Source: Bythopirellula polymerisocia (lineage in GTDB: Bacteria > Planctomycetota > Planctomycetia > Pirellulales > Lacipirellulaceae). From it: DNA of 64,000 bases. The first letter of the stretch is position 1. The number at the start of each line of letters is the position of its first letter. Positions 49,905-61,569 of this stretch are shown one piece after another. Location of the stretch: assembly GCF_007860015.1 (NCBI RefSeq), contig NZ_SJPS01000001.1:558001-622000 (forward strand), in the 5' to 3' direction. The notes beneath the pieces are model-generated. The model was given only the letters and a program-made list of their open reading frames with translations, had not been told where the DNA came from and did not search any database. Both the position numbers and the translations under genes were made by a program.

Positions 49905-49920
49905 AGCAAGTTCTGGACCA
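49905..49920 (-). promoter_or_regulatory. Sigma-54-like promoter of the BON-CBS-Usp operon
   Basis: On the reverse strand TGGTCCAGAACTTGCT has the -24 GG and -12 GC separated by ten bases, as in the consensus TGGCAC-N5-TTGCA. It ends 56 bases before the BON start codon and lies next to a divergent sigma-54 activator gene. Confidence 0.65.
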
Positions 49921-49990
49921 AAAGCCGCAATCCTGGCTGAGTAGTCATTTACGCGAGAAACCGTAAACTAGCGCTGGAGGAAGTGGGCCA

Positions 49991-50017
49991 ATTCGCACAC
50001 TTATCGCCAAAATGGCG
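49991..50017. promoter_or_regulatory. Putative activator-binding site, copy A
   Basis: ATTCGCACACTT, three bases, GCCAAAA then TGG. The same order of blocks, with one-base spacing differences, occurs at 61543-61569 upstream of the other sigma-54-like promoter. Bases 50005-50017 form a dyad (CGCCA-AAA-TGGCG). It lies 71-97 bases upstream of the -24 box of the BON promoter and 49-75 bases before the activator ATG, so it could serve both genes. Confidence 0.55.
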
Positions 50018-50065
50018 CAGTAATCACGAACTGAGTATCGAGTAAATCCGTTAGGAGAGCGGTTC

Positions 50066-51544
50066 ATGCAGCCATTTGATTCTTACGAAAAATTCCTGGA
50101 TTTGCAGCGATACGTCTCTTGGGGCGACGACGATCAGCAGCGGATCTCCGCGGTGCGCGAGCGACTGCTGGCCCGTTCGACCGTGATCATTGAAGACTTT
50201 TATGCTGAAATCAGACGGCATCCCTTCGCTGCCAAAGTGATCACTGGAGGGGAACCACAAGTTGCGCAGTTGAAGTCGACATTGCGGCAATGGCTGCGTC
50301 AATTACTGACAGGACCTTATGACCGGGACTATCTCGCCTTGCGAAGCCGAGTGGGTCAAAAGCATGTATCGATTGGCCTAGACCAAGTCTACACGAGTAC
50401 GGCACTATCTCGAATGCGGAACGGACTCATTCGCCTGCTGACTGAAGATTGGCAAGAAACCCCCGACGAACTATACCTTACAATTGAATCTTTGAATAAA
50501 CTTCTCGATCTCGATCAGGCGATTATTGAGGACTCCTATCAGACAGCTTTCATCACTCAAAGCCAGAATCTAAGTAAAGAGAACCTGCAACTTCGCGTCG
50601 CCTTAGAACGCGAGCAACGTAGTACGCATATCATAGGTGCTTGCGAACCGATGATGGCAGTCTATCGTCTTATCGAGCGAACCGCTGCAACTGACAAGCC
50701 TATTTTGATTCAGGGGGAGAGCGGCACAGGAAAAGAACTTGTCGCCAAGGCTTTGCATCGTGCCAGTCGGTTTGCGGGAAAACCGTTGGTCGTCATCAAC
50801 TGTGCTGCATTGCCGGAAAATCTATTGGAAAGCGAACTCTTTGGCCACGAAAAAGGGGCCTTTACCGGTGCTATCGCCAGCAAGCCTGGACTGTTTGAGG
50901 TTGCAGACGGAGGAACCCTGTTCATTGACGAAATCGGGGAACTGGCCGGCGGTCTGCAGGCCAAGCTATTGCGAGTGTTGGAAGATGGCTCGCTCCGGCG
51001 GGTTGGATCCGTCAAAGAGCGGCGGGTGAACGTGCGACTGCTGGCTGCAACCAACAGGGATCTGGGAAAAGAGATTGAGAAGGGCCGGTTTCGCGAAGAT
51101 CTATATTATCGGATCAATGTGCTTACGATCTTGTTACCCCCATTGCGCGAGCGGCGAGGCGATATTCCGCAGTTAGCACGTCACTTTGCAGGGAAAGGGT
51201 GGAATTGGGAAAGCCGCTTCATGCAGATACTGGAAAACTACAGTTGGCCAGGAAATGTACGGCAACTGCGTAATGCCATCGAGCGTGCCAAAGTTTTAGC
51301 GGAGGAGAACACTCTCATCGCTGAAAATCTACCCCCGGAAATATGGCGTTCTGGAAATGAGAAGGATATTCTCACACCTAGTTCTGAAGCGGACTTGGAG
51401 ACGGTCAACCGCGCTCATATCGCAGATACTTTCCGTCGCCATAGCGGGAACAAAGCCCGGACGGCGCGTGCCCTGGGAATCAGCCGCCGCACACTCTATC
51501 GCCTGCTAGAGAAACATGATATTGAAGAAGATGCGGCGCAGTAG
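50066..51544 (+). CDS. Sigma-54 activator with N-terminal globin-coupled sensor domain
   Basis: A 492-residue sigma-54-dependent transcription activator. Residues 10-165 form a protoglobin/globin-coupled sensor domain; the likely haem-binding proximal His is H100 in [16 protein letters not shown] short helix (about 170-185) leads to the AAA+ domain: Walker A GESGTGKE (217-224), the sigma-54 contact loop GAFTGA (264-269) and Walker [13 protein letters not shown]. The C-terminus is a Fis-type helix-turn-helix ([20 protein letters not shown]). It should sense O2, CO or NO through haem and activate sigma-54 promoters. AGGAGA precedes the ATG. The intact GAFTGA loop indicates an active activator. 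Confidence 0.9.
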
Positions 51545-51606
51545 TTCTGTCCCCTACGTGAAGTAGCTTCAGCTGAAGTCCTCTGTGCATTATCGACCAA
51601 GCCCCT

Positions 51607-60700: not shown

Positions 60701-61277
60701 GAATGTGTTCATCGGAAATGATTTCGATTTTGTTCACTTCATGGGAAGTCCTAAATCCATCGAAGAAGTGCAAGAACGGCACGCGCGATTGAAAGGTTGC
60801 CGACTGCGAGATTAAGGCAAAGTCATGTGCCTCTTGGACGCTGTTTCCTGCCAACATTGCCCAGCCAGTGCTACGTACCGCCATCACGTCGCTGTGGTCC
60901 CCAAAGATTGAGAGGGCATGCGTAGCCACGGTGCGTGCCGAGACGTGGAATACCGTGGGAGTTAATTCGCCGGCAATCTTAAACATGTTGGGGATCATGA
61001 GCAGCAGGCCTTGCGAGGCGGTGAACGTAGTGCTCAATGCACCCGCTTGGAGGGCACCATGGACCGCGCCGGCTGCCCCTGCCTCGCTCTGCATCTCGAT
61101 CACTTCAGGAACCGTGCCATAGATATTGCGTCTGCCAAAGGAAGACCAGGTATCGCAGTACTCACCCATCGGAGAGGCGGGAGTGATGGGATAGATGGCG
61201 ATGACTTCATTCGTTGAATGGGCAATCAAGGCTGCTGCTTCGTTTCCATCAACGGTACTGAATCGGTGGTTGCTCAC
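57708..61277 (-). CDS. nifJ: Pyruvate:ferredoxin (flavodoxin) oxidoreductase
   Basis: A 1189-residue, single-chain PFOR that converts pyruvate and CoA to acetyl-CoA, CO2 and reduced ferredoxin, an oxygen-sensitive reaction typical of anaerobic metabolism. Domains: N-terminal [39 protein letters not shown], the central EKR-type region, the two-cluster ferredoxin region ([21 protein letters not shown] and [19 protein letters not shown]), a further Cys pair in [16 protein letters not shown], and the ThDP site [21 protein letters not shown]. It starts with GTG 61277 after AAGGGAAAACTT. It is the first gene of a long reverse-strand series. Confidence 0.96.
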   Translation of the reverse strand: [1189 protein letters not shown]

Positions 61278-61387
61278 AAGTTTTCCCTTATCCAGATTCC
61301 ATCACCAGCCCGACTATACAGACAGGCCATTGTTTGCTTTTTAGTAAGAATCAAATGCCCGTACGTTGTAGGGCGACAGACCCTGGG

Positions 61388-61402
61388 GCAAATGTCATTC
61401 CA
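61388..61402 (-). promoter_or_regulatory. nifJ: Sigma-54-like promoter of the nifJ operon
   Basis: On the reverse strand TGGAATGACATTTGC has the -24 GG (61400-61401) and -12 GC (61388-61389) at correct spacing, and is followed by C. It is less close to consensus than the BON promoter (3 of 6 at TGGCAC). It ends 111 bases before the nifJ start codon. Confidence 0.5.
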
Positions 61403-61542
61403 CCTGAAGCAATAGGGAAATGAGATCGTGAGGAACTCGTTGCCGCGGTCTCTCCTGGTGACTCACAACTGCTTGCCGATTGGCATCAGACTCTTCCCAA
61501 CTTATAGATAATGAGGATTGCGGCGTGGATTTACTGTGCCAG

Positions 61543-61569
61543 ATTCGCACACTTGTGTGCCAAAACTGG
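61543..61569. promoter_or_regulatory. Putative activator-binding site, copy B
   Basis: ATTCGCACACTT, four bases, GCCAAAAC then TGG; the counterpart of copy A at 49991-50017 in the same orientation relative to its promoter. Bases 61547-61560 form a perfect dyad, GCACAC-TT-GTGTGC. It lies 142-169 bases upstream of the -24 box of the nifJ promoter. The stretch 61278-61764 is otherwise gene-free and holds the aldolase promoter. Confidence 0.55.

Follow-up and report, generated by a model that had tools for sequence, protein, structure and literature searches.

A 64,000-nt stretch of the planctomycete Bythopirellula polymerisocia (contig NZ_SJPS01000001.1, positions 558,001 to 622,000; hereafter the window) encodes a putative one-protein sensor-activator, in which a protoglobin domain is joined to a σ54-type AAA+ domain and a Fis-type helix-turn-helix (HTH) domain, together with two operons on the opposite strand (Table 1). 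The first operon diverges from the activator gene and encodes a BON-like protein, a CBS-domain protein, and a universal stress protein (Usp). The second begins with nifJ, for pyruvate:ferredoxin/flavodoxin oxidoreductase (PFOR), and the membrane H+-pyrophosphatase is a possible last gene of this unit, as would follow from co-transcription across the gaps in the open reading frame (ORF) list. Probably, this sensor-activator controls both operons by binding palindromic sites (dyads) upstream of σ54 promoters, and its most likely origin is a merger of a sensor kinase with an activator.

Table 1. Features of the sensor-activator locus and its two candidate target operons (window coordinates).
Feature	Position	Strand	Basis or remark
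Usp	48575..49027	-	Pfam
Two-CBS-domain protein	49038..49565	-	Pfam
BON-like small protein	49540..49851	-	Pfam BON 19.5 bits, below cut-off 27
σ54-like -24/-12 promoter TGGTCCAGAACTTGCT, BON-CBS-Usp unit	49905..49920	-	GG-N10-GC spacing; 15/16 bases kept in sister genome G005
Predicted upstream activator site TGGGCCAATTCGCACA, TGKGC-N6-GCACA dyad	49984..49999	.	Centre ~71 bp from BON promoter
Activator: protoglobin (8-160), σ54 AAA+ (189-355), Fis-type HTH_8 (444-483)	50066..51544	+	Pfam
Membrane H+-pyrophosphatase	52408..54963	-	Pfam; gaps from ORF list
Cyclic-nucleotide-binding-domain protein, no HTH detected	55052..55549	-	Pfam
CBS-pair protein	55628..56119	-	Pfam
CBS-pair protein	56122..56598	-	Pfam
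Dihydroorotate-dehydrogenase-fold (DHOD-like) protein, directly after nifJ	56643..57668	-	Pfam
NifJ (PFOR)	57708..61277	-	Pfam
σ54-like promoter TGGAATGACATTTGCC, nifJ unit	61387..61402	-	GG-N10-GC spacing; 14/16 bases kept in G005
Predicted nifJ upstream activator element, TGTGC-N7-GCACA-N4-TGTGC	61535..61560	.	Three half-sites

The two σ54-like promoters were located where a first-pass annotation of the window had placed them, with the right spacing, and both were kept in the sister genome, G005. Promoters were scored with our own weighting of the σ54 consensus, and at a threshold of 0.75 the window contained 112 σ54-like matches; a lone match is therefore weak evidence, and weight was given to conservation and to pairing with the dyad. 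The organism's own genome (G000, a 6.14-Mb draft) encodes σ54 (rpoN; PF04552 at 6.0e-63 on contig C20).

The same annotation described an upstream element common to both units, and its core was found as described: the 12-mer ATTCGCACACTT lies at 49991-50002 and at 61543-61554, oriented alike relative to the two promoters. The register, however, was wrong, as the element is the palindrome TGTGCG-N4-CGCACA, or loosely TGKGC-N6-GCACA, and starts one half-site upstream of the 12-mer. The half-sites at nifJ (TGTGC at 61535-61539, GCACA at 61547-61551, and TGTGC at 61556-61560) form a first dyad with an N7 rather than an N6 spacer, and the arrangement GCACA-N4-TGTGC is also present within the element. 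In G005, 28 of 30 bases of the nifJ element were kept in an intergenic region that was 47% identical and in which the distance to the promoter had grown, and the BON dyad kept 12 of 16 bases, with changes mostly in the spacer, in an intergenic region that was 54% identical. The proposed extension of the element (GCCAAAA and TGG) was rejected, since GCCAAAATGG, its form at the BON unit, kept only 4 of 10 bases in G005 and is probably due to chance. The possibility that the inverted element is an additional σ54 promoter was rejected by eye, because the spacing fits one unit only.

The TGKGC-N6-GCACA dyad was first seen in a comparison of the nine genomes that encode an orthologue of the globin activator over its full length. 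In the own genome, the dyad occurred at 19 places, with 29 strand hits as opposed to 10 in the control, and its perfect form, TGTGCG-N4-CGCACA, occurred six times, vs. 0 for the reversed pattern (Poisson P about 4e-6 with the pooled control rate). Across 59 related genomes, 46 perfect dyads were found; kinship is uncorrected in this and the following counts, and related genomes share some sites, which are thus not independent. A promoter scoring at least 0.85 and directed outward at 30-160 bp accompanied 24 of the 46 dyads, vs. 59 of 2419 random centres at the same loci (2.4%), which include the coding DNA that dyads mostly avoid; inward promoters at the same dyads, a control without this bias, numbered 3 of 46. 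Raising the score to at least 0.9 left 19 of 46 outward, vs. 16 of 2419 random centres and 0 of 46 inward. The test is not circular because the dyads were picked by sequence alone. When 396 genomes of the order were searched for a composite of dyad and promoter, 17 matches at 15 dyads were obtained, whereas the control yielded 1; of the 17, 15 were in the window's family, 3 in the own genome, and 14 in genomes already among the 59. Loose composites were rejected as non-discriminating, as the wrong promoter spacing (TGG-N10-TGC) gave 11 vs. 0 and the right spacing 14 vs. 3, the latter set including the BON unit and a CBS unit on contig C3; only the strict dyad was relied upon.

The first-pass annotation had named a motif scan of the genome and its relatives as a check. 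The 12-mer itself occurred four times in the own genome vs. once for the reversed control and lay near a σ54-like promoter at three copies, namely at BON, at nifJ, and at a haemerythrin-like gene on contig C18, where its orientation was opposite to the promoter; the fourth copy (C5) had no σ54-like promoter setting. A 12-mer is expected of the order of one time in such a genome, and the single match of the reversed control would suit a chance repeat. Recurrence and conservation of the corrected dyad, together with the dyad statistics above, contradict this and leave chance with a negligible probability. A second alternative follows from position, as both window elements lie in divergent intergenic regions, the first only 66-82 bp from the activator start and nearer to it than to BON. 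An ordinary repressor or activator could act through the elements on the divergent genes (the activator or the aldolase gene at 61765), with σ54-like matches as abundant as those counted in the window falling nearby by coincidence. The outward pairing of 24 of 46 vs. 2.4% and the retention of both promoters in G005 despite the changed spacing at nifJ make such an arrangement highly improbable.

An extra GCACA half-site tended to begin 15 or 16 bases beyond the 46 perfect dyads (6 exact; 12 with at most one mismatch at those two positions vs. a mean of 1.8 per position), in a spacing profile that is biased because the loci had been selected for N6 sites. This tendency might be expected of an activator binding side by side.

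The protein that would bind these dyads carries a protoglobin domain (PF11563 at 4.8e-31) together with a Sigma54_activat AAA+ domain with a GAFTGA loop and a Fis-type HTH, the latter two being features of a σ54 enhancer-binding protein; GAFTGA is the loop that contacts σ54. Pfam returned no Response_reg domain in the window activator. The best solved-structure match of the globin was PDB 5ohe (3.5e-27), which, with 5ohf and 6otd, we take to be AfGcHK, the globin-coupled histidine kinase of Anaeromyxobacter; the output there is a histidine kinase, unlike the σ54 AAA+ activator here. Residues Y46 and H100, presumably the distal and proximal haem residues, aligned to the Y and H of 5ohe and were invariant in 9/9 fused activators. 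By domain and residues, the activator appears to be a globin-coupled sensor, with haem and ligand binding predicted. The activator gene itself was the only protoglobin match in the own genome. A contig scan for relatives of the sensor named eight loci, seven of them in Planctomycetota (metagenome-assembled genomes) and one in Pseudomonas, while an earlier contig scan with the sensor part returned no relative. The full-length fused form was present in 9 of the 59 close relatives and, at E <= 1e-150, in 5 of a class-wide sample of 397 genomes, and its distribution is therefore narrow. Two frames of 1,053 and 1,059 aa (G028:C1:1151950-1152993 and G033:C57:256493-257539) had two tandem protoglobin domains, which is unusual.

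Dyads and activators of this clade occurred together. With activator-positive genomes defined by a best match of 1.3e-119 or better, a cut set after the list was seen (next match 4.7e-86), a perfect dyad was present in 22 of 40 positive vs. 2 of 19 negative genomes (Fisher P 0.001, uncorrected for kinship), at densities of 0.184 vs. 0.043 dyads per Mb (reversed control 0.061 and 0.075). In 12 of the 22 genomes with both, the 2.5 kb preceding the activator match contained a perfect dyad, which in G017 and G029 stood before a DHOD-activator gene pair. At the nine fused-activator loci, a dyad with at most two mismatches lay upstream of the activator in six, and a divergent σ54-like match of at least 0.82 was found in all nine, two of them without the leading T; for some activators in this comparison (e.g., L008, L021, and L028), the start codon had been set too far upstream. 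A predicted σ54 promoter with a dyad faced the activator in several relatives; no σ54-like match towards the activator was found in the own genome. The earlier proposal that the BON and nifJ units are targets of the neighboring globin-sensor activator is supported by the pairing of dyads with promoters, the co-occurrence with the clade, the proximity of the activator, the conservation in G005, and the presence of rpoN. The activator would bind TGTGCG-N4-CGCACA dyads some 70-150 bp upstream of σ54 promoters and would thereby switch on both units.

Several observations weigh against this assignment. No outward promoter of 0.85 was in range at 22 of the 46 perfect dyads, three of the six in the own genome lacked a strong one, and both window elements are imperfect, with two mismatches in one and an N7 spacer in the other. 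Allowing two mismatches brought the genome-wide count to 171 vs. 151 for the control, so that such a dyad is too loose to define a regulon. In G008, G015, and G028, the region upstream of the fused activator contained no dyad with at most two mismatches, and for 9 of 34 dyad-promoter rows the ORF lists showed no start at a distance of 450 bp or less. Among eight nifJ orthologues elsewhere with a full upstream region, five had a same-strand σ54-like match of at least 0.80, one of them 412 bp away, and only four had both such a match and a dyad-like site (at most two mismatches); the promoter matches in G014 and G019 were weak, and no same-strand match of at least 0.80 was found in G009, G015, or G038. 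Finally, the element may be a true σ54 enhancer that is read by another σ54 activator, with the globin protein a mere neighbor. Fis-type HTHs resemble one another, and the own genome gave 15 σ54-activator matches, that is, 14 besides the globin activator, with which a shared specificity is possible. Dyads were also found where no clade activator was detected, in G006 (three dyads) and G051 (one), although the activator of G006 may be missing from the assembly, a draft of about 670 contigs with 87% completeness. Since dyads track the clade across genomes and lie upstream of the clade gene in 12 of 22, we consider another reader improbable and retain the globin activator as the likely one.

Target genes were annotated by Pfam at positions downstream of a dyad and promoter. 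The predicted targets of the own genome comprised, besides the two window units, a haemerythrin-like gene (C18), a CBS protein (C3), and a lipoprotein with a PQQ propeller (C2), as well as a thiolase/reductase pair (C1) whose promoter was weaker and farther away. Relatives contributed haemerythrin (G009 and G029), Usp (G029), DHOD (G017 and G029), thiolase (G009), a formate/nitrite transporter and adenylate kinase (G006), a cytidylate-kinase-like protein (G031), PQQ-propeller proteins (G024 and G033), and the activator itself, as well as targets with weaker promoters, namely NifJ (G023), a CBS protein (G033), a peptidyl-arginine-deiminase-like protein (G046), and an NAD-binding oxidoreductase (G049). 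Recurrent among these predictions were the activator, CBS, Usp, haemerythrin, PFOR/DHOD-like, and thiolase genes. In all nine genomes with the fused activator, two or more of the CBS, Usp, and BON genes are divergent from it, and the DHOD-like gene adjoins nifJ also in G005, G006, G009, G010, G019, and G023. The enrichment of Usp genes among predicted σ54 targets in Planctomycetia, reported in PMC12316311, fits this predicted regulon. The regulon was earlier named a candidate stress regulon; by gene content, it is better called an oxygen- or energy-limitation regulon. Thiolase genes lay behind dyads at G000:C1:660442 and G009:C160:52719, with a reductase gene alongside in the former, which suggests that polymer storage may serve the regulon as an electron sink. 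A perfect dyad and a strong σ54-like promoter, TGGTACGCAACTTGCT, were also observed at G000:C4:411555 (L075) before the gene of a 171-aa protein to which no Pfam family was assigned. In the window, a DeoC/LacD-family aldolase (61765-62814) diverges from nifJ, the intergenic region with the nifJ element being common to both, and is also divergent in G005, at 95% identity; beyond it, 63073-63708 encodes a protein with a PEP-CTERM-like C-terminus (VPEPATWLL..., by eye).

The closest known system is the oxygen-utilisation system NmpRSTU of Myxococcus xanthus. According to PMC11841059 and PMC6211767, the protoglobin kinase NmpU, with which AfGcHK is equated (PMC6211767), signals through NmpS to the receiver-domain protein NmpR, and NmpT is a likely phosphate sink. 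Its targets include a CBS-domain protein, Usp, haemerythrin, cbb3 oxidase, and HemN (PMC11841059); its reported site is GCGCA-N5-TGCGC, in pairs (PMC11841059; PMC6211767); and homologues of nmpSTU were noted in a planctomycete (PMC6211767). As in NmpRSTU, a protoglobin sensor would feed an NtrC-type σ54 activator here, with CBS, Usp, and haemerythrin targets, in our case by predicted sites only. The activator operon of NmpRSTU is autoregulated, and here a dyad lies near the activator, with a predicted σ54 promoter towards it in several relatives and not in the own genome. In contrast to NmpRSTU, globin and activator form one protein without receiver or kinase, the site is TGTGC-N6-GCACA, and the predicted targets also include PFOR and a thiolase/reductase; neither cbb3 oxidase nor HemN appeared among the annotated targets, and no search was aimed at either. 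Because NmpRSTU uses a kinase relay and a different reported site, the system in the window may be said to work like NmpRSTU rather than to be NmpRSTU. The dyad also resembles the upstream activator sequence of NifA, TGT-N10-ACA, which is read by the Fis-type HTH of a σ54 activator and is contained in TGTGC-N6-GCACA; unlike there, the inner GC bases are fixed and the sensory domain is a protoglobin instead of a GAF domain, and no link to nitrogen fixation was found here. The DosR dormancy regulon of Mycobacterium, in which Usp-type genes are governed during hypoxia by haem-based sensing of oxygen, is similar in that respect and differs in being a two-component system with a LuxR-type regulator and no σ54. 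The DosR-Usp link is mentioned in PMC11841059.

The globin would report low oxygen, or a changed redox state of the haem or nitric oxide (NO), and the activator would then turn on the BON-CBS-Usp unit, PFOR, the DHOD-like, CBS, and cyclic-nucleotide-binding proteins, perhaps the H+-pyrophosphatase, and further units elsewhere. Globin-coupled sensors bind several ligands, and the regulon could be as proposed with a globin that senses NO or redox state, or with high oxygen as the activating condition. In the model of PMC11841059, the Myxococcus protoglobin kinase is active when oxygen is present, with its output shut off, and the sign after the fusion is therefore not transferable from that system. 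The predicted targets (PFOR, haemerythrin, a thiolase/reductase of the polyhydroxybutyrate type, and Usp) suit low oxygen, making a different signal or sign unlikely, if the most credible of the alternatives, and low oxygen the preferred signal.

The relatives of the activator indicated how such a protein may have arisen. The nearest non-fused activators were 61-69% identical over AAA+ and HTH, lacked the globin, and had a receiver-like N-terminal sequence in 18 of the 21 displayed, confirmed by Pfam for one (L243). A protoglobin gene lay beside the activator in 15 of the 31 activator-positive genomes that lack the fusion, and all five of these genes that were checked were histidine kinases by Pfam, an arrangement of the NmpRSTU type; others (e.g., G009 and G012) had a PAS-type kinase near the activator instead. 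Because relatives have a receiver-like domain and an adjacent protoglobin kinase, the window protein looks like a collapsed two-component sensor. In the globin tree, the nine fused globins grouped with 7 of the 15 globins from kinases (support 100/100), and fused and other members were split at one branch in the AAA+/HTH tree, where the single outgroup row was very long. This split was weakly supported (57/86 in the AAA+/HTH tree and 67/29 in the globin tree), which makes the direction and single origin of the fusion tentative. The simplest reading is that the receiver was replaced by the globin of a neighboring kinase. We somewhat favor the view that, in one planctomycete lineage, a two-component system for sensing oxygen was thereby reduced to one haem-controlled σ54 activator: a protoglobin histidine kinase and an NtrC-type receiver activator would have become one protein, with the globin in the place of the receiver and the kinase lost, while the DNA site and targets were retained. 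A fusion of globin and σ54 activator was not found among the literature matches listed, which covered open-licence PMC, and absence there is no proof.

The findings in this study provide a concrete and testable candidate low-oxygen regulon, with its predicted DNA code, for a little-studied group of planctomycetes. As living relatives retain the two-protein form, the fusion step can be reconstructed and tested, and the two forms offer a natural before-and-after pair in which signaling would have been shortened from two components to one while the targets were kept. A one-protein haem-controlled σ54 activator, if true, would also be a simple part for oxygen-responsive expression.

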